NCBI GenBank assembly: GCA_031213475.1
Contig: JARUPZ010000002.1
Span: 16,394,738-16,458,737 of the forward strand
Reading direction: 5' to 3'
Origin: Nereocystis luetkeana
Lineage: Eukaryota; Sar; Phaeophyceae; Laminariales; Laminariaceae
Length of the DNA: 64,000 nucleotides
A program made the translations under genes and the position numbers. The notes under the pieces were generated by a model. The model was not told where the DNA came from. It ran no database searches and worked only from the letters and a program-made list of their open reading frames with translations. Shown one piece after another: positions 337 to 64,000 of this stretch (position 1 is the stretch's first letter; each line of letters starts with the position of its first letter).

Positions 337-412
337 GGGGGGGGGGGGGGGTGTACTTGATACCTGGTAGGAGAGATGTACTCGATCTCATGCATGGCCG
401 TAGTCGTATGAC
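337..412 (+). repeat. Fragment of G-tract-headed dispersed repeat
   Basis: A run of twelve or more G is followed by TGTACTTGATA, then GGAGAGATGTACTCGATCTCATG and GCCGTAGTCGTATGACC. The same words appear at 26.15, 28.75 and 45.13 kb and inverted at 27.62-27.69 kb. Relative to the 27.6 kb copy this one carries an extra CCTGGTA at 363-369 (see findings). The family is not recognised. Confidence 0.6.
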
Positions 413-968
413 CGGGGGGGGTGTGTGATATGTTATCACCCGTGTGATACGGTACTGCAGCAGCTTCTACAGTGAAACATTAATGTTCTTTCGGGTACAT
501 AGACGGTAAACAGAAAAGAGCGGCGACTTACCACCGCGAACAGCGACGGAACGGCCGGGGGAAGGAGGGGCAAGAAGAACGTGTCGTTACAGAACGCGCG
601 CCGTTTCGTTCAGTGGCATTGCTGTATGTACATGTGCATCGTACATCAAGGTGGTACGGCAACATCACACCAACCTAATCGGAAGCATAGAGTGTGCCTG
701 TGGGCTTCTGGGTTGAATATTGAAACGTGCTGAATGAATGAACCATGTACGAAATATTCCCAAACACAGGGTGGCATCGTATTGCCGCGTGCAATTTTGT
801 TTGTTGAAAAAATGTAGTACGTATTGTGATCGCCTTAGTTTTGGTACCCGACGGCAGAAGGCAAATCTAAAAGCGGACGACGGCGTTGTTCATATTTTAC
901 GTCGTCTGTTGTACAAGAACACAGGAGGGTTAAACACCCTTTTTTACCCCAGCAAAAATGATCCAAAG
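413..968. other. No gene seen
   Basis: Unique-looking sequence without exon-like reading frames bounded by splice sites. A second G-run follows at about 414-421. Confidence 0.5.
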
Positions 969-1068
969 ACAACACCACTCTGGGTGTCTTTCAATATAAG
1001 GACCGCTTGGTATTCATGTCAGTGTCTCAAACGGTCCTAATATTGAAAGACATCCAGAGTGGCATAGC
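969..1068. mobile_element. Palindromic foldback element (family 5)
   Basis: Two arms of about 35 bases, reading CCACTCTGGGTGTCTTTCAATAT and then GGACCG, face each other around a loop of about 28 bases. The inverted right arm ends at about 1068. A foldback of this size without coding capacity fits a MITE. Only one copy is visible in the window, so the family assignment is weak. Confidence 0.55.
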
Positions 1069-1093
1069 ACCAAAATCTTTCAGTCGTCGGACA

Positions 1094-1215
1094 GATAGAT
1101 GATCTACAGATAGATCATCTGCAGATAGATCATCTACAGATATATAGAATCTACTGATGGATCATCTACAGATAGATTATTTACTGGTAGACCATCTACA
1201 GATAGATCATCTAGA
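1094..1215. repeat. 15-bp minisatellite
   Basis: About eight degenerate units of ATCATCTACAGATAG follow each other head to tail. Confidence 0.8.
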
Positions 1216-1559: not shown

Positions 1560-1564
1560 AAAAA

Positions 1565-2650: not shown

Positions 2651-2654
2651 TCAA

Positions 2655-3448: not shown

Positions 3449-6400
3449 TCACTGCGTCTCGTCAGGCTCCAGCTGCGACCTGGGTAGCAAAAGACACGTC
3501 CACTTTTGATCACACACACGCCACTTGCTGCTACTAGCACGCCGTTTTTTTTCTCGTCGCCCCAGGAGAAAATGTCCTACGCACACCTCGACTCCTCCGT
3601 CTCCTGCTCCATAAGCTCTTGCAGGCGTCGCACCGGTACGCCAAATCTCGCCGCCTGCCATACCGTCGAGCTAGCCGCGGCTTTCTCGGCAGCTTTTCGG
3701 TGCTCGGCGTCAGCGGCCAATTTTTCCTTCTCCGACGCGCGGGATAGCAAGGAATCTAGCGCGGCGGAAAACGCCCGCTCCCTCGCGGAAACCCTGGCCC
3801 TCGCGCACACCCTTCCTTTGGCCCACGCCTCCCTGCGGAAACAGTCGCGGTGAGGTTGAACGAACAATGGGGTGGTTGTGAGTCTCACTTTTCGGTAAAC
3901 GCTGCCGGTGAACGGTGTCGGTAGAGTGACTGAGCGGTGTCGTCTTCTCTCTCCCTATGTATGTACTCGTAGTGCCTTTTGCCCCTTTCGAGCAGGACTT
4001 CTGCGCACCCCACCCCGGCATAAACGTGACTACGTACTCGCACGGGCATGCAGTCAAGCCAGCGCATAAATATATATATATATCATCGCCCTCTCTTGCC
4101 AAAACTAGCTCAAGTCATGAATTAGTTGATTCCCTCTAACCCTGCCCTAATTTGTATCTATTCATCATTATTGTTGCGTTTGATATTATGATCCATGCAT
4201 TCCATCTTAGCCGCTACAGCCCTGTGAATTTTACACCTTGAAGCTCATCGTCAGACCCACATAGATAAGCATTGCGGAGTTTTGCTTTCGTGTGATTGAT
4301 GGTGAACGCAGCCGAGGCAAAAAAAATGGTACCTGTTCAGGGCTGCGTCGATGATAGATTGTGCGGTCTTTCCCGCCACCTTCCTGTGCAACTCCGTCTC
4401 GGTAGGGCGACGGTGGATACGCGTGTGCCAAGACTCCTTTGCTTGCTGCCCTTGTTCTTTCACTCGCAAATCTTCCTCGTGTCTGGGTGACGTGACAGGA
4501 TCGGCGGAGGAGAAGGACACACCGAACCAAATGATTTGTCTCCCTCCTAGGTTTGACGTGCAACGTTTAAAGCGCGACCGACGTGTACCACAGCAGTGTC
4601 GATCAATCAATTCGATCGATATCACAGCCGGCGTATTGACAACAGACAACTGCAAACATACCAGGGCCCGAACACCTGGTACCAAGTATCAACACCGGTA
4701 CGACGTGTGGTCTACAGCGGCAAACGGGAGTCTGGAATCTTCGCCGCCGCTTGGAGAAACACGGAAGGAGATAGGATGCCAAATTGCGTCATCACATATC
4801 ATATTAGGCTCATTCTTATCGGAGAAAGTTTTTTCCAAAAATTCCAAAGTTTGGAAATAATTGGAGATATGTATCGAGATACGGAGGCGTTCTGTCACTA
4901 TTCGCGAAATTCTCCAGAAGCAAACATATCAAGTTCGGTAACATTCCAATAATTGGAAAAAAAAGACAGGAAAATATGGGAGATTGAAAAATTGCGCGAA
5001 AAAAATGTCGAAAATTTGGACAAAAAGCTCTCCGATAAGAACGACCCTTATATGTACGTGTACTTACACAGCAAGCCGTCGTAAACTTCCTACGGTTGCT
5101 CACATACAAAATCAACGACATCAACAACCACAACAACGACAACAATAAAGTGTGTTGCTGTCGTTTTGTTTTCTGTTGGGAATATGGGGGGGGGGGAGGT
5201 TCGGTTCAGGGACTTGGTCGGACACACTGGCTTAATACAAGAAGTACGCATATATATACAGTACGCGACAGCAGCCAGAATATCCTATTTTGGCTAGGGG
5301 TCGATCTTAACGAGGGCTGTTTTTTAGTTTTTTTCGGTATGTTCCCGAAATTTCGTTTTTTTTTTTTTTTAATTTTTTTCGGTATTTTCCTGAAATTTCG
5401 GTATTTTAAAATACCGAAATTTCAGGAAAATACCGAAAAAAATTAAAAAAACAGCCATTTCCTATAGGAAAATACCGAAATTTCGGGAAAAAAACGAAAA
5501 AAAACTAAAAAACAGCCCGCGACCCTAAGGCTCGAGGCTTGTTACGATGTCATCGTCGAGCATAGGTTATGAAAAGCTAATATATAGGATTTAGAGTAAC
5601 GTCCCTCGCTGAGCACAGGTGCAGCTGTAAATTCTTAAACTACAGTAGTAAAAGAAACGTCAACCTGAAATCTCAAGTCCCAAATCTTCACACATGCAGC
5701 GTATTGTACGACGTATTTTATCGTAACCAAGCACATGGTGCACGACCACGTTGTTGGGCTCGCAACACTCGGCTCGAGGTACCTATCGTATTAAATGCGC
5801 GCACCTTTGTTCGGCGAGGGCGTTTGCACTCTTCCAAGCCGTCTGCACCTTTTGCTTGAGATCCAGGTACTCCTGGTAGCATCAGACGGCCAGCATTAAA
5901 GTTACGGAGGTCGTACTCGTACTCAGTGCGTGTTAATGGGCCACTCCAGCTGGGGGTGTTACTATTGTTGTATTTGAGAGTGTCGTTCGTACGATAGGAC
6001 AGTAATAATCCTTGGGCAATCGCTGATGTCCCAGTCTGTGCGTACGAACGATATTTTACTTTCAATTCGTACGTGCGTGAGAGGGAAACTATTTCCCAGC
6101 GAAAACGTGGGGTCATTCGAACATCGTACGTACGAGCACGCGGCGAAGTGACGGATTTTCGTGCCCGCTGTATCATATGCTGTACGTGTACGTGTAGTCA
6201 AGATAAAGGCGCAGCGTTATTATTACACCCACCAGGTACCTATACCTGCTTCGGTGTTCTGCAGGACAGAACGACGGACTCGTTGACCATACGCGTTTCT
6301 GATGGAAGGGCAGTATACCCTTCTGCTTGTCCGCCTACTGTCTCGGCAGCTGTCTCGACAGGCGGGCGGGTCGAAGGACAGGTTAACCCTTCTTCTTGTC

Positions 6401-7662: not shown

Positions 7663-7927
7663 GCCCAGTGAGTGCCACGGTTCGTAGTATGCCGGCCTTT
7701 AGAGTAGAGGAGCACTTTAGTGTAGACACACACGTTCCTAGTAAGCAAAGGGCACGGCCCTCGCAAGGACGCAAGGAGCAAGGAACAGGTTAGACTTGCG
7801 CGTCTTTGTTCCTCTTGCCTGACCCCTTTGGATCGTGGGAGAAAGGCTTCTCCTTCCTCTCTCGTCTCTTGCATACTTGTGCCGTCTATACTACAGCAGT
7901 ACTCTGTACCCTGTACCAGGTATTTTG
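7663..7927. other. Upstream region, no gene seen
   Basis: This is the probable promoter side of the minus-strand gene. I see no distinct element. TACCAGGTA lies at 7914. Confidence 0.4.
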
Positions 7928-9379: not shown

Positions 9380-9970
9380 ATATCAGCAGTATTCCTCATA
9401 CGCTTCTCTGCCAGCCGTTTTCCACTTTCCATTCCCCACATCATTTCGTCTTAGCTTCGAGTATGTATCCTATTCCTCAACATTCCATCCCCTATTGCTG
9501 TAGCATAGAGAAGGGAAAGCTGACGATTGGAGAACGGAGAGCGGAGCGGTTCGCTGAAGTGCATTGCGGTTCAGCAAGATTGCTCGCGTGCAGCTTGGCG
9601 CTTGAATCGATCGGTGGTTCGTCCGTCCAACCATGCGCGTGTGTTTTTTACAGCTGCTGTTTGTTGTTGTACCCTCTGGCGAACCGTTTTTTGTTGTCTC
9701 CGACAGACGTGACGGGGGCTTTACCTTTTCGCGGCAGCTCGAGTGCGTGCTCATATTATTAAATACCAGGTATTAGATAGTAGAGCTTACCACGTACTTA
9801 CCAGGTATTGTTCGAGAAAATCGTTGGCACACACTCCGTCCTTTGTACGAGGCAAAGCAGATTTTGATAACCAACGTTCGGTTGCGTCTGATTGGCTCAC
9901 CCGGACAGTATAATCAAGATAATACACTCCCTGAGACGAATTTCAGACCCGGTTTCCTCCAAAACATGCC
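9380..9970. other. No gene seen
   Basis: No supported exon. TACCAGGTA occurs at 9764 and 9799. Confidence 0.4.
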
Positions 9971-10066: not shown

Positions 10067-10301
10067 AGGGGCACACACAACGAAAATGGTGGATCTTGGA
10101 AACATTTCGTCGAGGTGGATGCATGCGACGCGTCGCTCGGCGTATTCAGTTCGCCCTCTCCGTGTGTCGAGAAACCCAGCTTTGAAAATCGTCCGAGGGG
10201 GTGTATTCTGCACGTTATCATACCAGGTATACGGTAACTTCAGGTTTTGCATGGGATTAGGGTGAGCTCTTTTTCGTCTCGTACCTGGTAGACAGCAGTA
10301 T

Positions 10302-10655: not shown

Positions 10656-10768
10656 TATTACGGGGGGCCATAGTTAATAGGACCTACGGTACACACAAAG
10701 ACCTATATATTTCGCTATTTGTGATAACAATATTTGGTCATTTTAACTACGTATGGTCCCCCGTATTA
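10656..10768 (+). mobile_element. MITE family 1, copy 2
   Basis: TATTACGGGGGGCCATAGTT to GTCCCCCGTATTA. The right tip is slightly changed. Confidence 0.85.
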
Positions 10769-13705: not shown

Positions 13706-13821
13706 TATTACGGGGGATCATATTTAGTACCTGGTAGGACCTACGGTACACACAGAAACCTATATATTTCGCTGTTACGACTAACAATATTTGTTCCTAT
13801 ATACTATGGTCCCCCGTAATA
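13706..13821 (+). mobile_element. MITE family 1, copy 5, with micro-insertion
   Basis: Complete palindrome that carries an extra CCTGGTA in the left arm, giving TACCTGGTA at 13728-13736 where sister copies read TAGG. Confidence 0.9.
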
Positions 13822-21829: not shown

Positions 21830-21959
21830 TATTACGGTGGACCATAGTAAATAGGACCGCATGTTGTTATTAATAGTAAAAATTGGAAAACATATACCCT
21901 GGTAGGTTTTTGTATGTACCATACCTGGTAGGTCCTATTTACTATGTTCCCCCGTAATA
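21830..21959 (-). mobile_element. MITE family 1, copy 7, with three micro-insertions
   Basis: Longer than its sisters because it holds three extra words, each at a TA: TTAATA (giving TATTAATA at 21868-21875), CCCTGGTA (TACCCTGGTA at 21895-21904) and CCTGGTA (TACCTGGTA at 21922-21930). Otherwise complete and TA-flanked. Confidence 0.9.
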
Positions 21960-42703: not shown

Positions 42704-43092
42704 ATTCGTTTGCGGTAGACATGCCTTGGGAAGAGAGAGCTTGTGCGACCGCTGTTTGTTGTTTATTTTTTATTCATGTGTTACGAACCTAAAAAAGACC
42801 GCTGTCTGTGCTGTGAGGTGGAGAATACCGTCGAAAGTCTTACTTGTAAGCTGCGCGTGATATACCAGGTATAATATACCTCGATCGCGCGTTTTCGGGT
42901 TCGTTTGCGGTAGACATGCCTTGGGAAGAGAGCTTGTGCGACCGCTGTTGTTTATTTTTTATTCATGTGTTATGAACCTAAAAAAAGACCGCTGTGCTGT
43001 GAGGTGGAGAATACCGTCGAAAGTCTTACTTGTAAAAAAGCTGCGCGTGATTTACCAGGTATAATATACCTCGATCGCGCGTTTTTGGGTTA
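42704..43092. repeat. Tandem duplication of about 195 bp
   Basis: Two adjacent copies start CGTTTGCGGTAGACATGCC and end CCTCGATCGCGCGTTTT. Both hold TACCAGGTATAATATACC. Confidence 0.9.
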
Positions 43093-47200: not shown

Positions 47201-49262
47201 TCCTTGGTCAGCGCTGGCGGAGTACTGAGTGACGTGATTGGGCTACCCCGTCTAACCAGCAGCCAATCACAAGAACGGGCAACTAAACCAAGTATTACGG
47301 CGGGCTACAGCTATCAGAGCCCAATATGGGCAAAAAAATCAGCCGCCCCCCGATGTTTACAATCCATAATAGCTCCATTATTATATTGTTATTATGTGTG
47401 TGTGTGTTGTCGTCACACAAAAGATCATCATTTCTACGCTCCTATTACGGGGGACCATAGTTAATAGGACCAAATACTGTTAGTAAAAATGGTTAAATAT
47501 ATAGGTTTTTATATAAACCATAGGTCCTATTAACTATGGTCCCCCGTAATACCTACATCAGTACACCGAGTGTCCGTCCTAATTACTCACCCTGGAGAGA
47601 TCTAAATCCAAAAAAGAAAAATATCGCAAAAGGCATCAGGGCAAAAGGGAAATGAAGATGCCACACGTACCGGGCATGCGAACACAACAACAACAACAAC
47701 CCAAACGGGAAAAAAAGAGCGACACAGACAGCAACGCCAAAATAATCACGAAAAACGAACGACACAGGCTACAAGCGATGCAGGAGGGTCAGACAGGCTG
47801 CGAGAAAAAAAAAAAAAAAGCACGCGTGCTGAAGAGGAACTTATAGCTGCCGCACGGACGAAGCGACACGAAGCAAGAGGTACACCGTAATACTTCGAAG
47901 TCTAGTAGAACAGCACGAGCACAAGCACATGGTTTATCAGCACATCTTGCCTTGTCATACTCGACCGTGATCGACCGGCCTTCCCCGTCGTGTTTGGAAC
48001 TCCCGATCCCGAATCGCACCGCCAGTACCGCGAGCCCGCTGCGGCCGCCGGGTAGGGCCGCCGCTTCCTCCGGGCCTCCGTCGGCGGCGCCCCCGGCCGC
48101 GTCAGCGGTGGGGAGCTTCTTGGCCTTGTCCGTCTTAGAACTCGCGTCCTTGGGCGAAAAGAACGCCGACATTTTCCCCTGCTTCTGCTTTTTTTTCGCC
48201 TTTCCCAAGAAAAAATGAGCGGGGAGTCGTTTACCAAGAGCAGCAGCAGCAGCGAGCAGAATCCAGAATATCCGATAAGGTGCGGGAACGTTCTTTTTTT
48301 GGGGGGGGGGGGCGCTTAACCCCTTTGGGCCTGCACTGCTTCCTGCTTTTGGGGGGGCAAATTACTCGGGATTAGAGTCACGTACGTGTACACTCGATAT
48401 ATGTATGCTTATGCACAGCAGTGTAGTACTATGAGGGTTACGAGGGCGGGGCAGGCGGGTCGGGGGAGAAGGGACGCCGACATGTTGATCTGCTTTCTTT
48501 TGCTCCATTTTTTGTTTGCGTTCGACGAGAGAGAGCAACAGCTACTGTAGCACCGCGAGCAGCAGCACCAAGAACAGCAGGGGTCAGCACCAAGACCGAG
48601 CCAAGAGCGAACAGCAGAGCATAAAAGGTCGTGGATTGTTTTTTGTGAGCTGAAGAGAGGGGCAGCGGGTCGGCGAGAAAGGGGACGCCGACGTTTTCCT
48701 TTCGTTCTGCTTCAGTTGTCGTCTCCTACAAGAAGACTACATGCCTAGATATACCAAGAGCGGCAGGCTACGGTGAGGTGATGAATTGTTTTTGTGCTGT
48801 AGGGCGGGGGTAGCGAGTCGGGGAAAGGGGACGCGAATTTCTCGGGTCTAAGCGGGCGCAAAGGCGCCGTCGACGCGGCCGGAGTACGAACCGGAAGGTC
48901 ATGCAAGCGATCAAAGGTCTTCGCCAAGTCACATCAGGTCGCTCTCTATAGTTGGTTCGATTTTTAGGTCGCGAAAAAAAAACCCCGGAGGAATCTCTGA
49001 CGACACAAACAAAACAAAAAAACTTCTCGCCGGGGACAGCGAGAGCAAATACAGTTGCTACAAGGTGCGCCTTGCCAACTGCCCGATGCCAACGTCCAGC
49101 GAGGCGGCAAGCACCGGCAAACTTCGTTGCTGCTGCTGCTGCTGCTGCTGCTATTGCTGCTGCTCCACTGCTGCTGCCATTTGCTGCCGTTGGTCCAGCT
49201 ACTGCTACTGCTGGTGCCACTACTGCTGCTTCTGCCACTGCTGCTGCTGCTGGTGCTACTAT

Positions 49263-49308: not shown

Positions 49309-52300
49309 GCTAATGCTGCTACTACTACTGCTGTTGCAAGGCGATCCATGGGAGGGGCAGGTGGACGAACAGGAGAGGGAAGAGACTCACCGGCTCGGGG
49401 ATTGCTCCCCCATTGGGCCCCTCTCCGCCCATTGCCCACGCCTGGGCCTGCTTGGTGAAAAACACCGCCGTCCCCGCGTATCCCTTTTTCACCGTAGAGC
49501 AGGACCATTCCGAGGCATAGCCGGGGAGGATGTTTAGCTCGCGCATGCATTCAACGTCCTTTTCCTGCAGCTTTGTCTCCTGACGATATTGGTTGAGGGG
49601 GAAGGAGGAAGGGAGGGATTCGTTAACCCTGTGGTGCTCGCGCGGAAACAGACGCGCACAGATCTCGGTGAAAATGGAATACCAGGACCCTTCACCTCTC
49701 TATTCATTGTTAACAGTGGGCAAGGCAGGTTGCGCTTTCACGAAAGTACAAAAATAAAATACCTCAACTCAGCTGTCGTGACATCGAGACATCTCCACGT
49801 GCGGGCAACTGCTCTGCTCTAAAAAACATTCACCCCCCCCCTTCTTGCAGCAGCGCTTGACAAAAATATGATAAGACTCGTACACAGCTTGTACAGGCGC
49901 TTCGCGCAGCGGGGGGTTTCGCCCGCTACGCGCTCTCACGAGGAAGAAGAACGGAACGGAACAGACGGTCCAAACAAAATAGGTGCGAACAGGCGACTTG
50001 CACATGCCAAGACCTCCACGCTCCATCCAGGAAAACAACCCGAACGCCGTACGCATGCCGCACGTACATACCCCAAGTAAGGTACTTATTTTCTTGTTTC
50101 GATCAGAATTACGAAAGAGAAGGCACAGCACCGCAAAAAAGATTGAAGAAAATCAAATTTCAGAGAGAGAAAAAAAAAAAAAAAAAACGTCTCCTTTAAC
50201 CCTTTTAGCACTGCAGTCTCGTTTTGGGGACAATTGGGGACAAATTACTTGGAATTTGAGTTGTTCGTCCCCAAAACGGGACTGGAGTTCTAAAAGGGTT
50301 AATACGCTCGCTCACGAGGAAGAATAGAAGAACGGAACAGACGGTCCGAACAAAATAGGTGCAAACAGGCGTTGGCGTTTCGTTTTTTTCATTGTTTTTG
50401 CGGTGCTGTGCCGTGCTGTGCTTCTCTTTCGTAACTATGGTCAGAAGAAAAAAATCAAGTAACTTACCTGGGGTGATTACGTACGTGCGTGCATGGGGCG
50501 GTCGGGTTGTTTTCCTGCGTGGAGCATGGAGCTCTAGGCCTTTGCAAGTACGGAAATATCAGAAAGAAAGAAAAATCCTCGCCCCCTCTGACGTCATTTT
50601 TTCCGCTTGGTGAGCTGTTTCCTATGCGGTTCGATTTCGAGCCTTAGGTTTGTATTTTTCGATCTCAAAAAACGAAATGACCCTGCTTATGCAGTCCAAA
50701 TATGCAAAATCCGACCGGATTTTTTTTTCGATTTGAGAATCCAAAATCCGACGACCTGGGTCATCAGATTTTCAAATCGAAAAATGGCATGCTCTCTAAA
50801 ATCAAGATGTTATCCATGACAGCAAACAGCAGCAGACCGATCGATGAGTTGGATGGTGACACAAGTGTATAGCTACGTTGCTTCGCGCCCGACGCTCGGG
50901 CGGCAGGCGGCGCGACCCTCCGTGGCCAGACTACAGTCGCCTGGCGCGGGCTCGGGCCTAGAGACCAAGAAAAGCGCACTCGGCACGCACCTCTCCGTGG
51001 AGTACGTACGAGTACTCGTAGGTAGACTATAAACTGCTGTACAGCAGCAGTCAGTCACAACATGGAACCCAAAATACCAAGACAGGTTGGCTCTAGCGCA
51101 TTCGCCACGTCTCTTCGCCGCCAGACCAGAGGCGGTCAGCCATGGCTCGGATGTTTGGGTCCTACGCGCAGTGCAGCGCAGTGCAGCGCAGTGCAGCGCA
51201 GTGCAGCGCAGTGCAGCGCAGTGCAGCGCACCCAGCGCATCTCTTCGCGGCGCCAAACCACAAAAACATCAGTTGGTCTCGGCGTTTGCTCAAATCTCTA
51301 CACACACAATAAATCTGGTTTTTCCGCATAGGAAGACCGTTTCGATTTGCCTAGTTCACATCTGAAAATGCGATGGGGTCAAAATCTGAAGCTCAAAAAT
51401 CGAACCGCATAGGAAACGGCCTGATTGGAACATCTTGCGCCGGTCAAAAGAAAAAAAATGAACAGCAGACCTTCTCTCAGCCATGTACGCTGCCCGCCCT
51501 TCTAGCGACCACCTCGCCACCGATTCGGTCTGGGTAAAGCTTTCCTCATTTTCTACCCCAGTGAGCCCCGTCGCGCACTTCGCGCAAAGCCCGGTGCTCA
51601 CCGAGGCCCTCGTTCGCCAGCTCGACAATGTATGTGCTCAGACTGCGATGCTCTCTCTCTGAAATTCGGCTTGGCCGCAAAAATAAGCACCGCTTGAATA
51701 TATTTTTCGATCCTGAACGACCCTTATAGACTCGTACATAATACAAGGTTCCCCTCCTGGAGTGTGCCTGGGGGAGTGGCGCAAGAACGAAATACGAATG
51801 ATAAAATACTCGTATGAAATACCTGCACACCTGTTTATTAATAGAACATCCCACCCATCATTATTCACAATGTGAAAAACACACACACACATTTATGAGG
51901 ACAGAACTGCTGTGTACTGCTGCTGCTGTTAAAACAGTTTGCGGAAATAGTGTCATTACTTATTAATAGTTGTAGATAATATGAAAAGGAGGGTATGCCG
52001 GTAGCACAGGCACTGTTACATACCTGGTGCAGTATAGGGCCGCCAATAAGAAAGTGCCCACTAAGAACATAATATGCTCACCTTTTGGGGAACGCTAAGA
52101 GAAGTAGGTTAAGAAAAACGGCTCTCTCAGTGGTAATATCTACACTGAACCCTATATAAAAGCATATGCTCAAGTTTCAAGATGGCGCCCCAATAAGAAT
52201 CTCAGGTTTACCCATACTCTGTACCCTTTCGGTTGACAGTAAAAATCACACCACTCTTATACTATTACGGGGGACCATAGTTAACAGGACCTATGGTATA

Positions 52301-54619
52301 TATAAAAACCTATATGTTTAACCATTTTTACTAAGAATATTTGGTCCTGTTAACTATGGCCCCCCGTAATACTATTGCTGTGTTCTCTGTAAGAAAAGCC
52401 CGACATTAATATCAAATAGTGTACAGCAGCAACAGCAAGTAGGGTAAACATCAGCCAGTGCTTCGTCGTACGTACGATATTTGTGCGAACTACTGTACGT
52501 ACTACGTAGTGTACATGACATGATTTCATACCTGGTGGTATGAGAACTTTTACACCAAGAAACAAAACAAAAAAAAACGCCAAGCAGACTGCAGCAAGCC
52601 GAGCAAGAAGCTGTGTGCCTGGTGCGTAGCGGCCAACACGACAACAGCAACGAGCAACAGGTCCCCGTAGGCACATGATTGCTGACGGCCGGCCTCTCCG
52701 CTGCAGCAAGCATCGCACTACTGCTTCGCTGTTGCTGCTCTGCAGCTGTCTATCTATAGCAAAAAAAAACAGAAGAGCACGCCAGCAGCTGCAGCAGCGG
52801 TAGATTTAAATTTGTGCCGTCACTCACCAAAGATGTCAGGAGACATGTCAATCAAGGCAAAACGTGTGCTGTCAAGGGTGCAGGGCCGAGTGTTCTACAC
52901 TAAAACCTAGTAGTATTTTGGTGTCAGTCGAGGCATGTCAAGGCAAGCTTGCTTTCCGTCATGGGCTAAAACGTTTGTTCCCTGACATCATTGTTACACA
53001 GCGAGCACAGACAGTCTCCATCCACCGTACAGCGCGCGGCTCTACCACACGTGCATGGTGTTGCCGACTGTTGATGTTGCAGTTAGCTGGCAGTCAGCAC
53101 GCTCTCTGCGCTGCTCGTGTTGACGTCTGTTGCCGGAGTCGCACTGCTGTGTGCAACAGCCCCAACATGTTTTGTACCATCCCACGATCGCGCACAGCTT
53201 CAGAGAGAGGTGTGTTGTTGCGGGATGATCGATCTCGTGTCAGAAAAAAGCAGATAGCCACAGCAATACAGCAGCATGTAGACCTGCCACCCGTGCCCGT
53301 GGCTGACCACTGCTGTGCTGCTGCTGCTGCTGCTGCTGGACGGCAGGGTTGAAGCGCGGTACGCAGCCACGTTCTTTGCTCCGATGCTGCTGTATTGGAC
53401 TGCTGTCTGTTGTCTGTATTGTGTGTTTGTGTTCAGACGCAAAAAAAATACGTACCGGTACGTACTATTAATATGAGTACATGAAATACCGAAAATATGA
53501 CGACTTTTCAGAGGTACGTACGTCCAAAATAAGGCCTCTCGTGCTGAAACCAGGGAAATCGTCTTATCCACTCCCGCCGGAAAAAAAACTTTGATCGCCT
53601 GCCACGCGCTCCAGAGTGTACGGATCGCGCCGAGACCTCGACCAATGTGTCCGGCCGGGCTTCATGTGCCCGAGCACGTGGTGTTCCGGCGAAAAGTGCA
53701 CGAACGAAGAGAAAAGTTGGCAAAAGTACGAAAATTTGACAAGCACACGTTTACATGTATCCAACCCCACACCAGGAGACCAGGCAGAGCCCATTCAGGC
53801 TTCCCTCGTGTCTCGAGGCACACACAACGCCTAGCCACGAAAACGGTAACCGCGCTCCTTCCAATCCCCCTCTACCCGCCAGCGCCCGCTGACACCCGCG
53901 ACGGCGCCGGGCTCGGGCGGTGTCGTGCTCTGGGTACACGCACGCACACAAAACAAAAGAAGAAAGAAAAAAGGCCCTCGCCGGCAAGTAATAGAAGGAG
54001 ACGGTGTCCAAGTGGGAGATCTGAGATGCCAGGGATGTACCAACCGAGCACGCTCAGAGAGAAAGATCCCAGGTATTTATGTAAGAAAGTCTATACCTGG
54101 TACCTGGTATACAACAAGTATCCGAACCTGAAAACAGACCAAGTCGGGCCTCTCGGTCTCCACCATGCGCCTCAGCACCTCCAGGCCATTCTTCACGGTC
54201 GCTCGAATGCCGTTGACGTTCCACGATAGTACCGTGAAGCAGGTACTTTTCCCGCTTCCGCCGTCGGAGGGCAAAGGGACGCGCGCAATGGGATCCCTCA
54301 CGGTGCAAATCTCCACCTCCTCTTTCTTCTTGCTCGCCTTGCCGTTGCCGGCCTGCTTGCGCGCGGTCGCTGCCGTCTTTTTCGTTTGCTGTTTCTTGCC
54401 GCCTTTGCCTGTGTTTTTGCCTTTGCCTTCAACCACCTTGTCCTGCCCCCCTTCTCCATCTCCCTTGTGCTCTCCGTCATGGCCCTGCTGTTGTGTCTGG
54501 CTGCCCAACAGTGAGTCATCTAGCGAGTCGGTCGCACAGCTGTTTGGCATCTGTTGGGTATCCTGACTGTCATCCCCCGCAGTTGTCATGCCGTCCTCCT
54601 GAGACTGGGATTGGCTCAT
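44202..54619 (-). CDS. AP endonuclease, exonuclease III/APE1 type, with inserted PIP box
   Basis: The product incises DNA at abasic sites in base-excision repair. Six exons: 54619-54128, 49579/49580-49391, 48199-47951, 46473-46313, 45073-44896 and 44450-44202 (stop), about 505 residues. Residues 1-120 are a charged tail (Lys-rich, nuclear-type). Catalytic motifs are all present: WNVNGIR, QETKLQ (metal-binding Glu), LYVPNSG (Tyr), [13 protein letters not shown] and the final LSDHCP. Exon 3 adds a block of about 50 residues before the strand RSITVEYD that holds [14 protein letters not shown], a canonical PCNA-binding box (Q-x2-M-x2-F-F, 48181-48158). A Gly/Lys-rich loop precedes LSDHCP in the last exon. 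Intron 3 has a GC-AG border (GACAAG/GCAAGA). Exon 2 carries five A at 49560-49564 where four would keep phase after QETKLQE, so as written the frame shifts by one base; sequencing error or a recent lesion are both possible. Introns are 0.45-4.5 kb. Confidence 0.9.
45119..45485 (+). repeat. G-tract-headed dispersed repeat, longest copy
   Basis: A run of more than 20 G is followed by TGCTCAACATCATGTTTGG, the CATCGGGTTTTTACGGACC block and CCGCTTGTGAGGCGGACTTG. Then a second, shorter round of the GTGTTCGGCGATG text follows. It interrupts the match between the two duplicated units around AP endonuclease exon 5, so it inserted after that duplication. Confidence 0.65.
45655..45845 (-). pseudogene. 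Degenerate duplicate of AP endonuclease exon 5 start
   Basis: On the minus strand this intron 4 segment reads [10 protein letters not shown], matching [10 protein letters not shown] at the start of the real exon 5 (45073 downward). The flanking GGCGGCGGCGG tract and a further block (GTGTGTGCGGTCGG, TTTGGCGCGCTCTTCCGGTTA) match the sequence on the other side of the insertion at 45.13-45.48 kb. After CGAAG the frame no longer matches the enzyme. It is a tandem duplication of the exon margin, now a decoy exon at most. Confidence 0.7.
46545..46625 (+). repeat. G-tract-headed repeat fragment
   Basis: A run of about 16 G, then TTGTTGCTTGCCTTTGTCGG and GCATCCCTTTCGAGACGGAG, as at 26.05-26.15 kb. 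It lies in AP endonuclease intron 3. Confidence 0.65.
46713..46821 (+). mobile_element. MITE family 1, copy 10
   Basis: Complete TA-flanked palindrome in AP endonuclease intron 3. Confidence 0.92.
47443..47551 (-). mobile_element. MITE family 1, copy 11
   Basis: Complete TA-flanked palindrome in the same intron as copy 10, opposite orientation, with almost perfect arms. Confidence 0.92.
48315..48379. mobile_element. MITE family 2, half copy
   Basis: TTAACCCCTTTGGGCCTGCA and CTGCTTTTGGGGGGGCAAATT match only the left half of the family 2 foldback. Confidence 0.5.
48448..48845 (-). pseudogene. Three degenerate copies of the AP endonuclease exon 3 margin
   Basis: Plus-strand blocks at 48448-48512, 48657-48720 and 48803-48845 share GCGGGTCGGGGAGAAGGGACG and then CCGACRTTTTC with the real exon 3 (48149-48190), spaced about 150-210 bases apart. 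Read on the minus strand two of them still resemble the PIP region ([10 protein letters not shown] and [10 protein letters not shown] beside KQGKMSAFF). They lie in intron 2 and have no intact frame. Confidence 0.6.
49125..49340. repeat. (GCT)/(ACT)n trinucleotide tract in intron 2
   Basis: Runs of CTG, CTA and ACT triplets over about 215 bases, directly beside exon 2. The poly-leucine and poly-threonine frames are shadows. Confidence 0.9.
50196..50302. mobile_element. MITE family 2, copy 8
   Basis: TTAACCCTTTTAGCACTGCAG to TCTAAAAGGGTTAA with the longer core variant (GGGGACAATTGGGGACAAATT). Confidence 0.88.
51170..51236. repeat. 10-bp tandem repeat
   Basis: About six perfect copies of GTGCAGCGCA. 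It lies in AP endonuclease intron 1. Confidence 0.95.
51483..51629 (+). CDS. Possible exon on the opposite strand of AP endonuclease intron 1
   Basis: An ATG after CTTCTCTCAGCC opens 49 codons (for example [19 protein letters not shown], and [15 protein letters not shown]) that end exactly at a donor, GACAAT/GTATGT. Codon choice looks like a real exon. No next exon was found and no family is recognised. Confidence 0.3.
52263..52371 (+). mobile_element. MITE family 1, copy 12
   Basis: Complete TA-flanked palindrome in AP endonuclease intron 1. Confidence 0.92.
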
Positions 54620-55057: not shown

Positions 55058-58000
55058 ATGACGCGGTTTGCAACCCGGCTCATGCCTGTCCCATCCCCAT
55101 CACGTCTGTTGGTGACAGCAGTGTTCACAGTGCTGCTTCTACCAGCAGCTCGCATGGTGACAGGGTTCATGACCGGCCCGATGCGAGGCGGTCTTTGTAT
55201 GAGCTGCGACCAAAGGAAAAGGTGGGATCTGGCGTTGCTCGAAGAGACGCAGTCGGCAAGCAAATTACTACTACGCAGCACTGTGTTGGTCTTTGTGTTT
55301 TGATCCAGATCGGACCAAGGGCGCGTGCCGCCTTCGACATTCTTTATTACCGGGGGGCATAGTTAACAGGACCTATGATATACCTAAAAACCTTTATATT
55401 AAACCATTTTTAACTCACAATATTCGGTCCTGTTAACTATGGTCCCCCGTAATAGTCATGTTCCTTCATGTGTCACTTGTCACAAAACGAAGTCGTTTCA
55501 AGTCGTGACTCATATGTACCAGGTACCTGGTATCCATATTTATAGCAGGCCGGCAGCAGGCAGCAGTACGCGTAGCTCTGGAGATGGGGCTACGAATTGC
55601 GGCAACAGCACAATTCGATTCCTAGAGCCCCGCTTTTCGCAAGGAGCACTCACCTTAGGGGATCTTTCTCATCTTCCTGGCATACGCCTTTTACACGTAT
55701 CTCGCATGTACACCGGGTACATGTACAAGTAGAGATAGGCGTGTACGTACAGCAGACAAGCTCTCGCACGAGTACAAGCTACACGTACTCTCTTGCAGGA
55801 CGGCAGGCACTACGTACGTGAGCATGTATTCCGCGAACCCCGTGGCTGGTTGTTTCGAATGTGTAAGGCCTCACTTTTGGCGTCAAAGGAGAACTGATAC
55901 AGTACGACGCAGGCGAATACAGCAGCAGCGGTGGTTAGCCATTTGAGTCAGTTTCGACTGCGTATCACACGGCTCGCTGACGCCCAACGGCAATCTCAAT
56001 TTTTAATAGTTACGAGTAGCGGGAACAGCGCCTCTGCAGGCGAATTATCGCCCCAGTTGTTGTGAAATCTGCAGATGCACCATACCGCTGGTACTTGAGG
56101 CTGAATGAGATGTTCTCAAGGGTTCCATGTACAGCAGTATGTGCGATGTATGACATGAACAGCATCGTGTTGGCTATATGGGTGATCTGACACCTCAATA
56201 TATTCGCCCATGTGCGTTTCGACGTCTCATCCGGCAGTCCGCAACCGGCGCTGCCAGAGTCGCGGCTGAAGTTCTTGAGCGGGCTGGTGGGAGGCGCGGC
56301 TGCTCTGGCGCTGCCGGCGGCCGTACTGGCCGACCCACCTTTAGAAAAGTTCGTCAAAGATGAGGTAGGGTGACATGGTCAGCCGCACATGGTACACAGA
56401 GTGGCTAGGAGCATGACTTTTTGAACACCTTGGTTGTTGCAACTATTAATACTGTGCTTGTTGTTACTACCGCCGCCGACGGCGAAGATTAGTCATGCTG
56501 TATGTGTTGACTAGGTGTGGAGACGGCGGTGGCCGCACCCATCCCCTGTTGATTGCTTCGTTAATTGCTTGTTTGGTGGATGAATTGAAGGGTTGATTGA
56601 ACGGTCGATCTGAAAGAGCTCTTTTGCAGACCAAGACTTGAACTGTCTAGCGCGTGGCCCAATGAACAACGTACAACGAGCTACACTAGGCGCTCGGAGC
56701 TCTCTGCGCTTACGGCGGCTTCCTCCTCAACCTCTAACGTAACACGGGCTGTTCCGTGACCTGCCCCGTATTATACATCTCTGCCACAGGTTTGCCTTCA
56801 GAGAAACCTCAACGGGTCTTGCAAAAAGTTTGGCATCGAAGGCAAGGATGCACAGGTGCGATCGCTTCTCTGAGGGGTGTCGGATTTTCCACCCCAGCTT
56901 GAATACGTGGTGACCACAAGAATGCCCGCTACTCTTAGCCGAAGCATCACCTACCAGTGAGGACTGGCTTGAGGACACAACCACCATTTATTTGGGTGGG
57001 TGGGCTGTATATGTCTTGATCTGAGGGTGCTGTCGCGGTCGTGGGGTCTAAAAGTGTCGTTGTAAGATCCGTTGGATCTAGTGGAGCTGTTGTGAGATAC
57101 GTTGAATCTAAAACTGTCGTTGTGCCGCGTTTTTGGCTAGGCGCTGAAGGCGCTGGTAAGCCTTGCGTTCGCTTTTTTTACCATTGACTTATCTTCTCTC
57201 TCGGCTTGCACGCGCACCCTTCGGCAAACGAACGGCTTAACTGGTGAAGGTTGATCGCGTCTCTACTACGGCCGAAGTGGAGGAACCGGAGAGCGAGCTG
57301 CTGGCTAAGCTCAAGAAGAGGTGCGGTGCATACGGTCGCCCTCGGATGTGGCTTGTTCCTGTCGCGAGTTATTCTATTGGAATGATTTGAACACATTTAT
57401 TGACAATCGTTTCATTTTTTTTTGTTTCGCCGTGCGTGGCCTCCCGCGAGTCGCGTCCTTTTTGAGTATCACCGTTACCCTCTGGTAGGTTAGCTTGGCC
57501 ATAGGCGTTGAGTTTCCTCCCGCACATTCCTATTACTGTACGGGTATGCTGCTCTGTCACAAGAGAGTAGGCCGCCACACTCTCGAAGGGAGACCGATTC
57601 TGTTTTATTTTTCTCTGCTGGACCATCTGTTTATCAGGACGCTGCCTGTTCCGGAACACAGGCATTCAAGGGCCAGCCCTACTGTAGCTTACACATGTAT
57701 GCAACTACATGCAGACCCCCCGTTATTCATTATGCTGAGCACTAGGGGTATCTCGTGTTTAGATACGATTCACTTTACGTCTTGCGTGGGTCTTGCGCTC
57801 GTTGCGCACCGTCTTTCCAGCCGCGAGAGGCTGACCTTCAAGCTGAGATTAGCGTTACGCTTGGCGGCCCATGATTTACTGTGTTTCGGTTTCGTCCAGA
57901 ACTGCTGAGAACAAATCCAAGAACGACGAGGAGATAGCTACCAAGACCTTTGTTAACGGCCAATCGGGGGAGTTCGGGCCTTTTAGTAGGTGAGAGATCG

Positions 58001-58651
58001 CTGCTCGGCTGCTCAGGCGCCGTACTGGTCAGACTTGTAACGCGTCCACCCGGCCAACGATTCACCCGTCCTTCGCCCTCATCTTCCCTGAACTACACGG
58101 CATATGGTACAACAGGTATAGTGTACCTGGTATCGTAGTTTTTGTTATATCATGTGACTTATGCTGTAATATTTATGCGTCAGCTGTGAATTTCACAGGA
58201 ATAATGTTCGGCCGAGGTAGCCGATACTTAGCATCCGGGTTTGTGCAACCACCGCAACTACAGCTGCTGCTGTGACGTGGACTCGTATCGTAAGTGTTTT
58301 CGGTGACGTGTGCTGGCGCCTCCCCGGTGTTGTGTGTGCCGCTGCTGCATGGAGTTGTGTCTCCACGAACTTGCTCACAGTGCTGGTGTACGATTGATAC
58401 TGCGCGCTGGCGATTTAACCTAACCTCTCGTGTTGCCTCCCTTGCTGCCGTTCGCCTCTCCCTTTTCTGATACTTTGCTCGCCCCTTTGCTGTTATGCTC
58501 TCACTTTCTCGCCGGTGCAAGATACGTCCCTGTCAAGCACAAGGACACGGGGCGATACGAGCTCGTGCTCATTTCTGAGCTAGAGGGGATGAAGCAATCG
58601 GGGTTGGTTGTCAGCGAGCGTGGTGTAGACTTCTTCGCAGACGCGAAATAA
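55058..58651 (+). CDS. Probable thylakoid-lumen protein of unknown function, five exons
   Basis: Five exons join in phase: 55058-55221, 56238-56364, 57250-57320, 57900-57989 and 58522-58651 (stop), 193 residues. Residues 9-37 form a signal peptide (PSPSRLLVTAVFTVLLLPAA, then a site near VTGF/MTG), followed by a basic, Ser/Met-rich stretch. Residues 73-87 form a second hydrophobic signal, LVGGAAALALPAAVLA, with an AxA-like end before DPPLEKFVKDE. The remaining 105 or so residues are soluble and charged (ESELLAKLKKRTAENKSKND, GEFGPFS, RYVPVKHKDTGRYELVLISE, and the end VDFFADAK). This tripartite layout fits import through four plastid membranes and then into the thylakoid lumen. I do not recognise the mature domain. 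The first exon is the least certain; a second ATG lies at 55082. A family 1 MITE sits in intron 1. Confidence 0.7.
55345..55454 (+). mobile_element. MITE family 1, copy 13
   Basis: Complete TA-flanked palindrome in intron 1 of the lumen-type gene. Confidence 0.9.
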
Positions 58652-59282
58652 ACGGCGGGGGGATCGGCCCTGCTGTTTTCTGTCGTTTTGTGGTGTCAGA
58701 GAGTATCTTGCCTTTCGTCCTTGACCTGGCACGTTGCACGTTCATGGTGTCACGTTGCACGTTCGTGGTGTTTTTTAAGTTGATATCCTCTCCTCTTTTC
58801 GCCCCTGCGAGCCATGTACCAGGTATTTCACTGGCTCTGATACGAAGCCAGTTCCAGCTCCATTTACTGCGTATTATGTTGGATTCACATGCACTGTCTC
58901 TGAGTTGTGGCAACACGCCTCTCCCTGAGGGTGACATCAACACCATCCGTCCACGAATGGCGGCGTGCGAGTCGCACCACTGACTGCTGAGAGTTGCGCA
59001 GCGCGGGAAGTGATTTGCTATTGATAGCTCCTGCTCGTGTGTGTCCAGACACTGAATTACGAGTCACGAGTCACGTACGCATGGGAGAGCCTAGTACTCT
59101 GTAGAGCTCGTCCATCAGTGTACACGTGCAGACAGACCACTGCCGTACAGAGTACCACTACAACATAGATACCCGGTAATGTGTACCTAGAGCTCGCGAC
59201 ATGGGTACCGTGTCACACGGGTGACAAGATAACACACCCCAGCTGAGACAAATTTCGGGCCCGAGTTTCTCCAAACCATGCC
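58652..59282. other. 3' flank, no firm gene
   Basis: A short direct repeat (GTTGCACGTTCRTGGTGT, twice) lies at about 58733-58770. TACCAGGTA lies at 58817. Confidence 0.4.
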
Positions 59283-60314: not shown

Positions 60315-60499
60315 CTTGATTTCAGTGCCGAACAACGAAACAATGTGCCGTGCAAAAAAAGATACGAGAAGCTCGATCGTGAGCTGCTACCTTCAAACAG
60401 CATAATTTTACTTCTAAAGTACGACCGGAGCGTCAAGTCGCCATTTTGAACTCGACTTTGCACAACTCGTAGATGGATAGACATCATACTTACAGCAGT

Positions 60500-61620
60500 G
60501 GCAAGCAGCGGTGAGCGGTGAGGCTATCGCTGAATGGATCCACATCAAATGATCAGCCGGATATTTCGAGTTTTTATAATGTTTGAGTTTCCCTTTTCAT
60601 AAACGCCATCCTGCCAACCTCAACTCCGACGCAAGGCCTGGGGTTCCCCGTTGCGACGAGCATCGCCGAACTGACAAGCGATACTCCTGTCCTGAAGACT
60701 CTGTAGAGCTACATCGTCAGTGATCGTCGAAAGGAATGAAAGGTGCGGTGTCACCGAACGCAGTCTGCTTTGATTCTTATTTGTTCTCGCCTGTTGATGC
60801 AGGAACCATCTTCGGGATGAAGCGGGTTCGTTCTTCGGATGCTGGTACTCGTACAGAGTACACAGCAGTGGCCGCAGCACATGTCTGAAGCTCTGAAGAA
60901 TGCCCCTACACAAGTAGTTGTCGATTCGTAACATCCCACCAACGCGGGGCGATTTTTTTAGTGGACACAAAGGGTCAACAAGCGTAGGGGTCCGCGCCCG
61001 ACCACCGTGTTCACACCGAATATCCACCGAAATACAAACTCGACACGAAGCGCATGCACTGCTGTTGGTTGTTGTACTCGTGACTCGTAATAGCCGTGTT
61101 TTGATCGCGTTTCGACCTGCTTGACCGTTTTGACCTGTTTTGACCCCTTTCTTTCACCAACAACTCGCACTGCTGCACGTCTTACACACCACTGGGTCGC
61201 GGTGGGGCGTATACTAGGAAGAGGGGGCGGAAAGTACGCCGCCGTAACTGTGCTTCTGATTGGGCTCACGGCGTTTTTGTCGGTACTGCTTCTGTCCCCC
61301 CGGTTCGGCGGCCAACACTCAAAGTTCCCGGTTTCAGGTAAGTAGCAATCTCAAAGCGGTACGAATTGAAAAACATGTTGGTGCAAAAGTTACAGCAGCA
61401 GTACTTCTCGTTGTCCATCCATGTGTTGAACTTGGACCCCCACCTCCCCTGCATCTGTCTCCCTCCGCCGACTGCTGTACTGCCGCGCTTCCGTCCCCCC
61501 TTCTTGTCTCATGCTACTCCCGCTGCGTACGTACTGCGGCGCGCTCAAAATATAAATAAAAACTATTAACCACGCCCACGTATTATACGTACTCCCACCC
61601 ACCCTCTCGAAGGGCTGTTT
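60500..61620. other. No firm gene; upstream region of the DJ-1-like gene
   Basis: Open frames exist on both strands but none shows paired splice borders and protein-like text. GC/pyrimidine-rich text lies just before the ATG at 61621. Confidence 0.4.
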
Positions 61621-63294
61621 ATGGTATTGGTGTCGCTTTTAGTTGGGGCCTTGCCCAAAGCCCACGCGTTCGTCGGTTCCGGCCGATTGTTCGTAGCGAA
61701 GTTGTCGGTACCACCCTCGGCTTCCCGGCTAGCAACCGCACGGCCTCTGGCAATAGGCCGTTACCGGGTCGGAGCGGCTCCTGCGCGCACCGACTCTGCA
61801 GCCTCGGCTTTGAAAAGTCTGACGGGTTCTTGGGCGCTTTTCGCCTCAGGCGGTGCTGCAGTCGGCGCGGCTGGGCGAGGCGCGGCAGCTGAAGTGACGG
61901 CGGAGAGGGGCGCCGCTGGGGAAGTGATGACAAAGCACGTCCTGGTGCCGGTGGCGGACGGCAGCGAGGAGATCGAGAGCGTGACGATCATCGACACCCT
62001 TGTGAGGGCCGGGGCGGTGGTGACCGTGGCCAGTGTCGCGGAGGGCGTGGAGGTGAAGACAGCTTTCGGAATACACTCCCGTTGTGTGGACCAAACACTT
62101 GGAATTCAAGTCAGATTTAGGTTTTATGTAGAGTGCAGTACCTTTAAGGGGTTCATAAGAGACCGAGGCATTGACCCGGGCTAATTCAAGTCAGATTTAG
62201 GTTTACGTAGAGTGCAGTACCTTTAAGGGGTTCATAAGAAAACGGAGGCATCGACCCGGGCTAGGTTCCTTGTGTGAGCAAGGGTGTTCTTCCACACTGG
62301 TGTCAGTGCATCCGCTCTGGAAGTTCTTTATCCGGACGTGCAAGGATGGAGTTTCTTGTGGGGCTCTCTCTTACGGCAGGGCTCATCGTGAGAGGGCCAG
62401 TACTGTGTTGGAGTCGAACGTCGTTGTTCGCCGCTTTTCGTCGTTGATGCTATCCTCTCTCATCGGGTTCACTCTGGCTTTGGGCGCCTATCATGGGTAT
62501 ATCTGGTAGCCTTCTTCGGCGATGCTGAGATTTGCCCTCTAGTATGCACCTTTTGTACGGGGTACCTGACTTTTTCCCACCCAGGTAGGAATATGAAATG
62601 TTGAGGAACGCGCGGTGACACACACATGAGGTGGACACAGAGACACAGAAGCAGTGTGAGCGGGTGAGCTTGTACGAGTACAGAGTTATTGTTGCTGTAG
62701 TTCTCACATTAACTCATCGCGTATATTCCAGTCCGTGGCCTTATTAATGGCTGGTTCCAGTATTTTTCTGGAAGGATAAACTAACAGAGTACCAGGTATA
62801 GCGTACGCAAACTACAGTAAGGCGCCAGCGGACGCTTTCTGGCTCCCGGTTCCCTTGTTTCATGGTTCACGACTGCACACGCACATGGCGATTCGGAGGA
62901 AAAAACGAAATACGAGTGAGTACTATGCATGTTATTCGTTCACAGATTACATATTAATGTTAATAGTTCACAGTTTAGAACTATCAATAGTGCCGTTGAT
63001 ACCAGGTAGTTCACAGTTTAAAGGTAGTTCGCAGTTTAAAGCGGCGGTAGTTTTGCGCTCATATTTCGAGAAAACGGGCCCGTTTGCGTCGTTTGATGCT
63101 GCGCCGCTTGCTTTGCATGGTCTCGTTTTTTCCCCCCGCAGGTAAAGTGCTCGAGGGGGGTCGTCATCAAAGCGGACTGCAGACTAGCGGAGTGCGAGCA
63201 GCGCGACTGGGACGCTGTCGTGTGTCCTGGCGGCATGCCCGGCGCCACGCACCTTAGGGAGAGCGGGGCTCTCGAAGCCATTCTTAAAAAGCAG
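61621..63294 (+). CDS. DJ-1/PfpI family protein, plastid-type presequence, 3' end outside window
   Basis: Two exons are visible: 61621-62052 (144 codons, donor GAG/GTGAAG) and 63142-63294 (51 codons, ending CAG/GTTAGA). They join in phase. The start MVLVSLLVGALPKAHAFVGS is a short signal peptide ending in AHA/F, the heterokont plastid-import cleavage motif. A Ser/Ala/Arg-rich transit region of about 85 residues follows. From MTKHVLVPVADGSEEIESVT the DJ-1 fold begins, including the conserved Glu of GSEEIE; exon 2 gives VKCSRGVVIKADCRLAE, then DWDAVVCPGGMPGATHLRES. The exon with the nucleophilic Cys (usually AxCAxP) is not present before 64000. Family members act as glyoxalase/deglycase-like or redox-stress chaperones; which one applies here cannot be told. 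Confidence 0.9.
62101..62265. repeat. Tandem duplication of about 82 bp in DJ-1 intron
   Basis: Two adjacent copies start AATTCAAGTCAGATTTAGG and end GACCCGGGCTA, differing by a few bases. Confidence 0.9.
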
Positions 63295-64000
63295 GTTAGA
63301 TACGCTCAGCGTATGTGTGTGTGTGTTCTTCGCCTTAAACCGTTCTTTCTACCCGTCGACATGCAGCACACCCAGTGTCCGTGCCGATATCCTAGAGAGA
63401 GATAAGGCTCTGTGGTAAAAAAACTATGACACAGAAAGATTTCACGTTGTGATGCAGCACGAGGAGTAGACAATGCAATGCCCATGCCATCGTACTGGAT
63501 ACGACATGCGCAACAACGGCGTATGATACGTCCATGGGTTGGTGTTCACGAGGAAAATTGTCTCATGATCAAGGACACCTATACTCCATCATACTGAAAT
63601 ATTGTACGTGTACGAGTCTCTTACCGAAAAAAGAACCTTGCCTCGTCGGCACTTACTATTTCGAGAAAAAAAATCGAAGCCGTCGGCTGTGAGTACTCCG
63701 GGGTTGATGGATACCCCTATGAGTCTGTTGTGTCATATCATACGAACGGTATGGAGAGATAATCTTGTACGAATATACCTGGTAGAAGCAGAACAAATCT
63801 CGATCTCGTCCGCAAGCTCACACGAAATTTGTGCACTTTTTTGCACAACGGTACTGCCGCTGTCCCTTTTTTATAACGGTACTACTGCAGTACTGCTGGA
63901 AGCTGTATACCAGTACATGATAGCGTATGGATCATATATGATTTGCGCGACCTGGTACGTATACGAATTATACGCGTTTCGCACTGAATCTCCGCGGGAG
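63295..64000. other. DJ-1 intron, right end of window
   Basis: No further DJ-1 exon is recognised. TACCTGGTA lies at 63776. Confidence 0.5.

Follow-up and report, generated by a model that had tools for sequence, protein, structure and literature searches.

The nine-base palindrome TACCWGGTA, which is scattered throughout the stretch of Nereocystis luetkeana DNA that we analyzed (64,000 nucleotides; hereafter, the window), is very probably an excision footprint, that is, the scar left by a cut-and-paste element (MITE3) whose insertion at a TA creates a second copy of that TA; this assignment is based on comparison of sequences. The genome most likely contains approximately 180,000 excision scars of this small TA-site element.

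The window contains exactly 24 copies of the word, and all 24 coordinates listed in the original prediction are exact; dinucleotide shuffles of the window yield a mean of 0.22 copies and a maximum of 2, and none of 100 shuffles reaches 24. Single scars in the form TACCTGGTA are located at 361–369, 10282–10290, 24594–24602, 26488–26496, 58124–58132, and 63776–63784, and those in the form TACCAGGTA at 2517–2525, 7914–7922, 9764–9772, 9799–9807, 10221–10229, 41758–41766, 58817–58825, 62790–62798, and 63000–63008 (all coordinates are given without strand). A local duplication has the scar in each of its copies (42863–42871 and 43053–43061), and a six-base form, TACCAGGGTA, occurs at 45612–45621. 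In the whole genome (465 Mb) the word occurs 182,395 times vs 1,744 times for the same word written backwards; the genome-wide count, which the original prediction had singled out as a check, is therefore approximately 100 times its control and not near expectation. A 264-kb sample (the window plus twenty 10-kb stretches) contains 89 copies vs 2.07 expected from a Markov-3 model (43-fold), the highest ratio among the 9-mers that occur at least 20 times and contain at least three different letters. A search of the literature for the word, for footprints, and for algal and kelp transposons, judged by titles and the openings of abstracts, found no description of it.

The insertion can be read directly in MITE1, a 109-bp MITE for which an empty copy (47443–47551; [TA]TTACGGGGG...CCCCCGTAA[TA]) served as reference, trap, and positive control. 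Aligned copies show that TA became TA-CCWGG-TA, as had been claimed. The 53 near-full copies, drawn from a set of ~316 kb, contain 15 scars in 14 copies at five of the 21 TAs. In the window, the MITE1 copies at 13706–13821 (scar at 13728–13736), 21830–21959 (scar at 21922–21930), and 24049–24164 (scar at 24097–24105) contain the word where sister copies have a plain TA, in agreement with the original prediction; the copy at 21830 also contains a second scar, the six-base form TACCCTGGTA (21895–21904). Scars with A and T centers are both found at one MITE1 site, and comparison of carriers with their nearest relatives, at sites with multiple hits, found that scar missing from the relatives in 38 of 39 cases. 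Thus, the word in MITE1 is the result of repeated, independent insertion and is not ancestral, the point on which the original prediction could have failed. A second repeat provides the same picture: the copy with the scar at 361 reads GATA-CCTGGTA-GGAG, and its relatives (window 27620–27688, with the empty site noted previously at 27659, and a copy in L014) read GATAGGAG. Of the 27 insertions of at least 4 bp in MITE1 copies (59 alignments), 14 match CCWGG or CCCTGG scars exactly. Transposon scars may thus contribute a major share of the small insertions in this genome.

The sequences that flank the scars reveal a symmetric target preference that extends seven bases on each side (R at −1, A at −3, A at −6, and A/T at −7; n = 80 unchained scars). 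This preference can explain the chained scars, which had been reported at 54094 and 55517 and are real (double scars at 54094–54109 and 55517–55532): the TAs that adjoin a scar match the preference, with a mean score of 2.69 compared with −2.42 for all TAs and 2.42 for the scar sites themselves, from which the matrix was built. The TAs that flank a scar would therefore suit the element, and some would be struck again to form chains. Double runs account for five of the 84 scar runs in 264 kb; in a scan of viral_contigs the chained word is present in nine contigs, with eight of the nine stretches holding the pair alone and one (L030) holding one more. The same evidence bears on the idea that no element was involved and that selection or mutation bias spread the word as a site for protein binding or methylation. 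The word is palindromic and found throughout the genome, and CCWGG is well known as a methylation motif, but such spread is not expected to produce discrete 7-bp insertions at TA in paralogous copies in place of point changes, or a preference that reaches seven bases to either side; with a matching element also found, we assign this explanation a very slim chance.

That element, MITE3, was found by using MITE1 as the trap: it is ~79 bp in length, is flanked by TA, and has the ends CCACTCTGACCG...CGGTCAGAGTGG. A whole MITE3, with TA on both sides, is inserted in MITE1 (L091/L094), and other MITE1 copies provide the empty site; the terminal inverted repeats (TIRs) of the copy in L091 are 23 bp with 96% identity. 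The 23 full-length copies are 79–83 bp with a mean pairwise identity of 0.69, and exact TA-plus-TIR ends of MITE3 occur 56 times in the genome compared with zero for the control. When 41 copies were read, a TA followed a clear right end in only 12 (the left TA belonged to the query). The flanks of 53 MITE3 insertions correlate with the target preference of the scars (r = 0.68) but not with the insertion sites of MITE1 (r = −0.34); their mean score is 0.57 vs −1.13 for all TAs and −0.03 for the best of 10,000 random sets. The base adjoining TA is preferred to different extents (G at 0.53 for MITE3, A at 0.48 for the scars). The original prediction, that the scars derive from a TA-target transposon, not then seen, whose ends are CC...GG, is thus supported: a TA-flanked CCA...TGG element with the same target preference exists, and it differs in one detail, its ends being CCACTC and not CCWGG.

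Using a MITE3 profile, we identified eight loci in 304 kb with E < 0.001 and 14 with E < 0.1 (none in the reversed sequence). The window contains a diverged copy that still has TA on either side (TA-CCAATCTGG...CAGGGTGG-TA; 38405–38490; E = 8e−9, with support from the letters and the alignment), a diverged family member with ends that are now without TA (ACCACTCTGG...CCAGAGTGG; 974–1062; E = 2e−4), and two weak family relics (51671–51738, E = 0.007; 40109–40189, CCACTCTGAACGAAAATA, E = 0.02–0.03 and a 3-mismatch match). Scars exceed recognizable MITE3 copies 8–14 fold in the 304 kb. Most scars are letter-perfect, while the MITE3 copies are much diverged, so the makers of the young scars must be few or lost. 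Searches for a transposase yielded no PF13358 (DDE_3) match in the organism's own genome (30 candidates scored) and none recognizable by eye in the ORFs of a 4-kb neighborhood (L141); a Pfam search of ten ORFs in the window gave a weak Mucin match only.

An excess of scars over copies, together with the dominance of a single product, might also be expected if germline-limited elements were removed from the soma by a programmed process in each generation, as in ciliates, and the assembly represented the processed state. In the 264-kb sample, however, one-mismatch forms of the word number 97 vs 49 expected (two reverse-complementary central forms were entered once in the sum), with the surplus chiefly transitions; decayed scars are therefore common, that is, scars are inherited and age. 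MITE3 copies are also still present in the same assembly, so we regard programmed removal as highly improbable.

For excision of MITE3, we propose that, as with Tc1/mariner enzymes, a transposase would cut one strand of each end at a point three bases within the element, so that each flank would keep a CCA 3′ overhang; because these overhangs would be unable to pair with each other, they may be joined by a one-base A/A overlap, and fill-in would then produce CC-A/T-GG. The GG of the scar would be the complement of the CC from the other end of MITE3, and CCGG, CCATGG, and CCNTGG would be minor products. In the sequences, CCWGG, CCGG, CCATGG, and CCNTGG each stand between TAs, and CC is the end of MITE3. 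The MITE1 TA context that holds the whole MITE3 has the five-base scar in 193 other places, and 4- and 6-base forms are also found there; the same TA is thus filled by MITE3 in one copy and scarred in different copies, with no single locus seen in both states.

We also considered a different TA-target transposon, extinct or rare, with CCAGG ends and 5-base overhangs that would leave a central A/A mismatch, like the Sleeping Beauty footprint. CCAGG self-anneals except at its center, slipped pairing of such overhangs would yield the CCAGGG form, and a source of this type would account for the scarcity of young MITE3 copies. Four genome-wide traps in the MITE1 context caught 19, 5, 52, and 88 places, of which we read 19, 5, the first 20, and 20, respectively; the first two traps bear on this model. 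The 19 places with TACCWGG followed by a base other than T are scar variants or apparent decayed scars in MITE1 (15) or unrelated (four); the five with TACCWGGT followed by a base other than A are in MITE1-like sequence (four) or unrelated (one). None of these 24 places opens into a long element. TA-flanked elements with CCWGG ends, the search suggested by the original prediction, were not found in 264–316 kb, nor was any inverted-repeat element beginning TACCAGG or any TACCWGG-ended source, when we scanned for inverted repeats and for shared ends and looked for paralogues of half-sites (170 half-sites, 61 with paralogue matches). MITE3, unlike a CCAGG-ended transposon, accounts for the data with an existing element; after the trap reads and the discovery of the whole MITE3 in MITE1, the 5-base-overhang model was dropped, and we judge it unlikely.

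Three candidates from these searches were set aside: a TIR-like pair in L011 (8305–8586) in which the TIR continues past TACC, a TIR-like pair in L022 (6004–8057) that begins CAGTACC, and a junction at L041:1147 that joins two unrelated repeats. With respect to the other reads, eight of the 20 places with TACC followed by C or G are not clean scars. The 20 reads from the 88-place trap were chosen by their third and fourth letters (nine TACCAT, five TACCAC, four TACCTC, and two TACCTT; no TACCAA or TACCTA); seven read TACCATA, which could reflect a duplication of CCATA or a scar of three bases, and these we left uncounted. A longer, unexplained form, TACCWGGTGGTA, is present in two of the five TACCWGGT reads.

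The 182,395 words constitute a readable record of excision in one genome, with MITE1 as an internal control; from sequence alone, this record provides the target preference, the spectrum of repair products, and a count of excisions. The inserted bases occupy sites that would go unnoticed in repeat masking. We raise, tentatively, the possibility that excision of MITE3 far outpaces the build-up of copies and makes scars a leading source of short insertions, perhaps via an excision activity favored or domesticated by the host and not ordinary transposition.

MITE3 has the TA target with duplication and the terminal inverted repeats of the Tc1/mariner superfamily, and its putative scars, with a few end bases between two TAs, would resemble those of that superfamily: for Sleeping Beauty, PMC7827188 describes TA duplication, end bases kept between the TAs, and 3-base 3′ overhangs. 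The footprint lengths differ, with 5 bp prevailing here vs the 2–4 bp given for the superfamily (0–3 bp for ZB) in PMC7913693; the 5-bp footprint probably prevails because CCA cannot self-pair. Stowaway MITEs moved by Mariner-like elements, which have a 2-bp TSD and footprints of end bases with retained TSDs (PMC4561436), are also similar: MITE3 is short (under 500 bp) and non-autonomous, with a 2-bp TSD that is a TA duplication. It differs in that scars exceed recognizable copies in our sample, and in its TIR, which is CCACTCTGACCG. The Stowaway TIR is CTCCCTCC. MITE1 is likewise a MITE with a TA target, although its TIR is TTACGGGGG and its target preference is T-A-C before TA, and TATTAATA (63 sites in 264 kb, 8.4-fold, some within TA-rich simple repeats) appears to be the scar that it leaves; we assign this word to MITE1 because it matches the MITE1 insertion-site preference (r = 0.75; control 8-mers, −0.21). 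MITE1 has approximately one scar per copy (63 in 264 kb; 53 copies in ~316 kb) compared with 8–14 for MITE3. Thus, the kind of mechanism is already known; the scale, ~8–14 scars per recognizable copy in 304 kb, is unusual.

The abundance of the word TACCWGGTA, that is, CCWGG between two TAs (the scar), is real and strong. All 24 window positions listed in the original prediction were confirmed (dinucleotide shuffles give a mean of 0.22), and the genome (465 Mb, 1987 contigs searched) contains 182,395 occurrences vs 1,744 of the same word read backwards, our control. On account of this size the host is taken as eukaryotic; the window is located at C2:16394738. In a 264-kb sample (the window and 20 arbitrary 10-kb stretches), the word occurs 89 times, 43-fold its Markov-3 expectation and the highest ratio among the 9-mers compared; its one-mismatch neighbors are also in excess (97 vs 49 expected, central pair counted once), mostly by transitions, and the excess forms are old, decayed scars. 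Scars average ~1 per 2.5 kb; one stretch (C7:4000001-4010000) has 17 in 10 kb and also, at its positions 3730-3810, a copy of MITE3, a ~79-bp TA-flanked element.

For every scar, the surrounding sequence was set against that of paralogous copies. The best test case is MITE1, 109 bp long ([TA]TTACGGGGGACC...GGTCCCCCGTAA[TA]), with 13 scars in 11 of 43 near-full copies from the window and 20 arbitrary stretches; an enlarged set contains 15 scars in 14 of 53 copies, at 5 of 21 TAs. Nine of these copies are scarred at one pair of neighboring TAs, with both A and T centers and one six-base form. When the 13 MITE1 carriers at multiply hit sites were compared with their three closest relatives, the carrier's scar was missing in 38 of 39 comparisons; thus, the empty TA is ancestral in MITE1 and the hits are mostly independent, bearing out the proposal that TA became TA-CCWGG-TA by insertion. 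In 59 MITE1 alignments, exact CCWGG or CCCTGG scars account for 14 of the 27 insertions that are 4 bp or longer. MITE1 TAs also contain the inserts CGTA (TACGTA) and TACAGCAG (window 10656-10768 and L012:4619-4731, L-numbers denoting other stretches of this genome), possibly scars of further TA elements.

Unchained scars (n = 80) share a symmetric target preference: a purine beside the TA, A at -3, A at -6, and A/T at -7. On the resulting matrix, TAs adjoining scars score 2.69, scar sites 2.42 (the sites from which the matrix was built), and all TAs -2.42; because TAs flanking scars score like scar sites, this preference can explain chained double scars without a special process.

As a positive control, MITE1 itself is expected to leave a scar. 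The word TATTAATA (e.g., window 1476, 7030, and 8676) occurs at 63 sites in the 264-kb sample, 8.4-fold over-represented, some within TA-rich simple repeats. Its flanks correlate with MITE1 insertion sites (r = 0.75; common T-A-C...G-T-A context), as those of other TA-bounded 8-mers (r = -0.21) and of CCWGG scars (r = -0.20) do not. Judged by these flanks, MITE1 seems to leave TATTAATA on excision and is not the source of the CCWGG scar, so that scars from at least two TA elements seem to persist in the genome.

The source was sought genome-wide at a MITE1 trap, the TA after GGGRCCATA, where sequence matches count 193 five-base scars (control 0). TACCWGG followed by non-T occurs at 19 places, all read: four are unrelated and 15 are MITE1 scar variants or apparently decayed scars, including seven TACCAGGGTA, one TACCTGGGTA, and one small-contig duplicate of another. 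TACCWGGT followed by non-A occurs at five places (four MITE1-like, one unrelated), and none of the five has a long insert. Of the 52 TACC+C/G places, 20 were read: TACCGGTA stands in eight of them, TACCGTGGTA and TACCCTGGTA in two each, and the remaining eight have no clean scar. A longer scar-like form outside the model, TACCWGGTGGTA, occurs at the trap in L142 and L143. The 20 places read among the 88 with TACC, A/T, and then non-G included TACCATGGTA once, TACCTTGGTA once, and a whole 79-bp element, TA-CCACTCTGACCGGGAATATAAGC...GCTTATATTCTCGGTCAGAGTGG-TA (MITE3), which lies within MITE1 in both L091 and L094. These two stretches appear to represent a single locus, present once on a chromosome and once on a small contig that is perhaps the other haplotype. 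The small contigs of both L049/L060 and L091/L094 are letter-identical to the chromosome loci over the stretches printed and are probably alternative haplotypes; such contigs could serve in a search for scar polymorphism. A 2.05-kb element (L022:6004-8057; 27-bp inverted repeats from TACAGTACCGGCCCGC, bounded by TA or GTAC) was put aside as a candidate scar source. A dispersed SINE-like repeat, CTATGTGACCCCGGATCTGAGTTACGAG..., often continuing into A-rich tails, was also seen (L041:1147 onward, L012, L017, L022, L023, L025, and L027).

A TA followed by the initial 16 bases of the MITE3 TIR occurs 56 times genome-wide (control 0). We read 41 copies, with 41 left flanks and 12 right flanks (those with a clear right end, then TA). 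Their outer flanks resemble those of scars at -6 (A.49; scars.50) and -7 (A.36/T.43; scars.38/.40); their log-odds correlate with those of scars (0.68) and not with those of MITE1 (-0.34), and the mean on the scar matrix is 0.57 (maximum of 10,000 random TA sets, -0.03). With a MITE3 family in hand that has a scar-like target preference, the original prediction of an excision scar left by a TA-target transposon is essentially right. A profile was built from 23 full-length copies, whose pairwise identity averages 0.69. Over 304 kb it detects 14 loci with E<0.1, eight of them with E<0.001 (a further stretch, E=0.99, was dropped from the count), and none in the reversed sequence; four of the 14 are in the window, where the best match, at 38405-38490, has a TA on either side. 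A genome-wide DNA search for MITE3 gave at least 81 matching rows from 40 of 300 candidates scored. MITE3 copies form tandem-like clusters, spaced ~80-110 bp apart, at C38:3429612-3430516 and C7:3249402-3249797.

Tc1/mariner enzymes are described as cutting three bases in from the ends (PMC7827188). We infer that such cuts in MITE3, with its CCA ends, would leave two CCA overhangs that could not pair, so a one-base A/A overlap and fill-in would give CCAGG or CCTGG, the two orientations of one scar. Losing both A's would yield CCGG, keeping the overhangs in full CCATGG, and altering one base CCNTGG; each of these forms is observed. The TTA overhangs of MITE1 would pair over two bases to give TTAA, which is also observed; in our view, that MITE1 and MITE3 of one genome fit one rule is the best support for the mechanism. 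Among the loci read, none was found in both MITE3-filled and scarred states, and a PF13358 search of this genome for a transposase gave no match among 30 candidates scored.

The same 304 kb (20 kb of it picked beside a scar-rich stretch) contains 112 scars, or 8-14 per recognizable MITE3 copy; rough scaling gives ~12,000-21,000 copies genome-wide. The copies are much diverged and most scars are letter-perfect; the copies behind young scars are therefore few or lost. In the papers retrieved by our literature searches (titles and opening parts of abstracts), we found no description of the MITE3 family, the dominant 5-bp scar, or the excess of scars over copies. The kind of process, transposon excision scars, is already known, and MITE3 fits the Tc1/mariner MITEs in element type and TA duplication.
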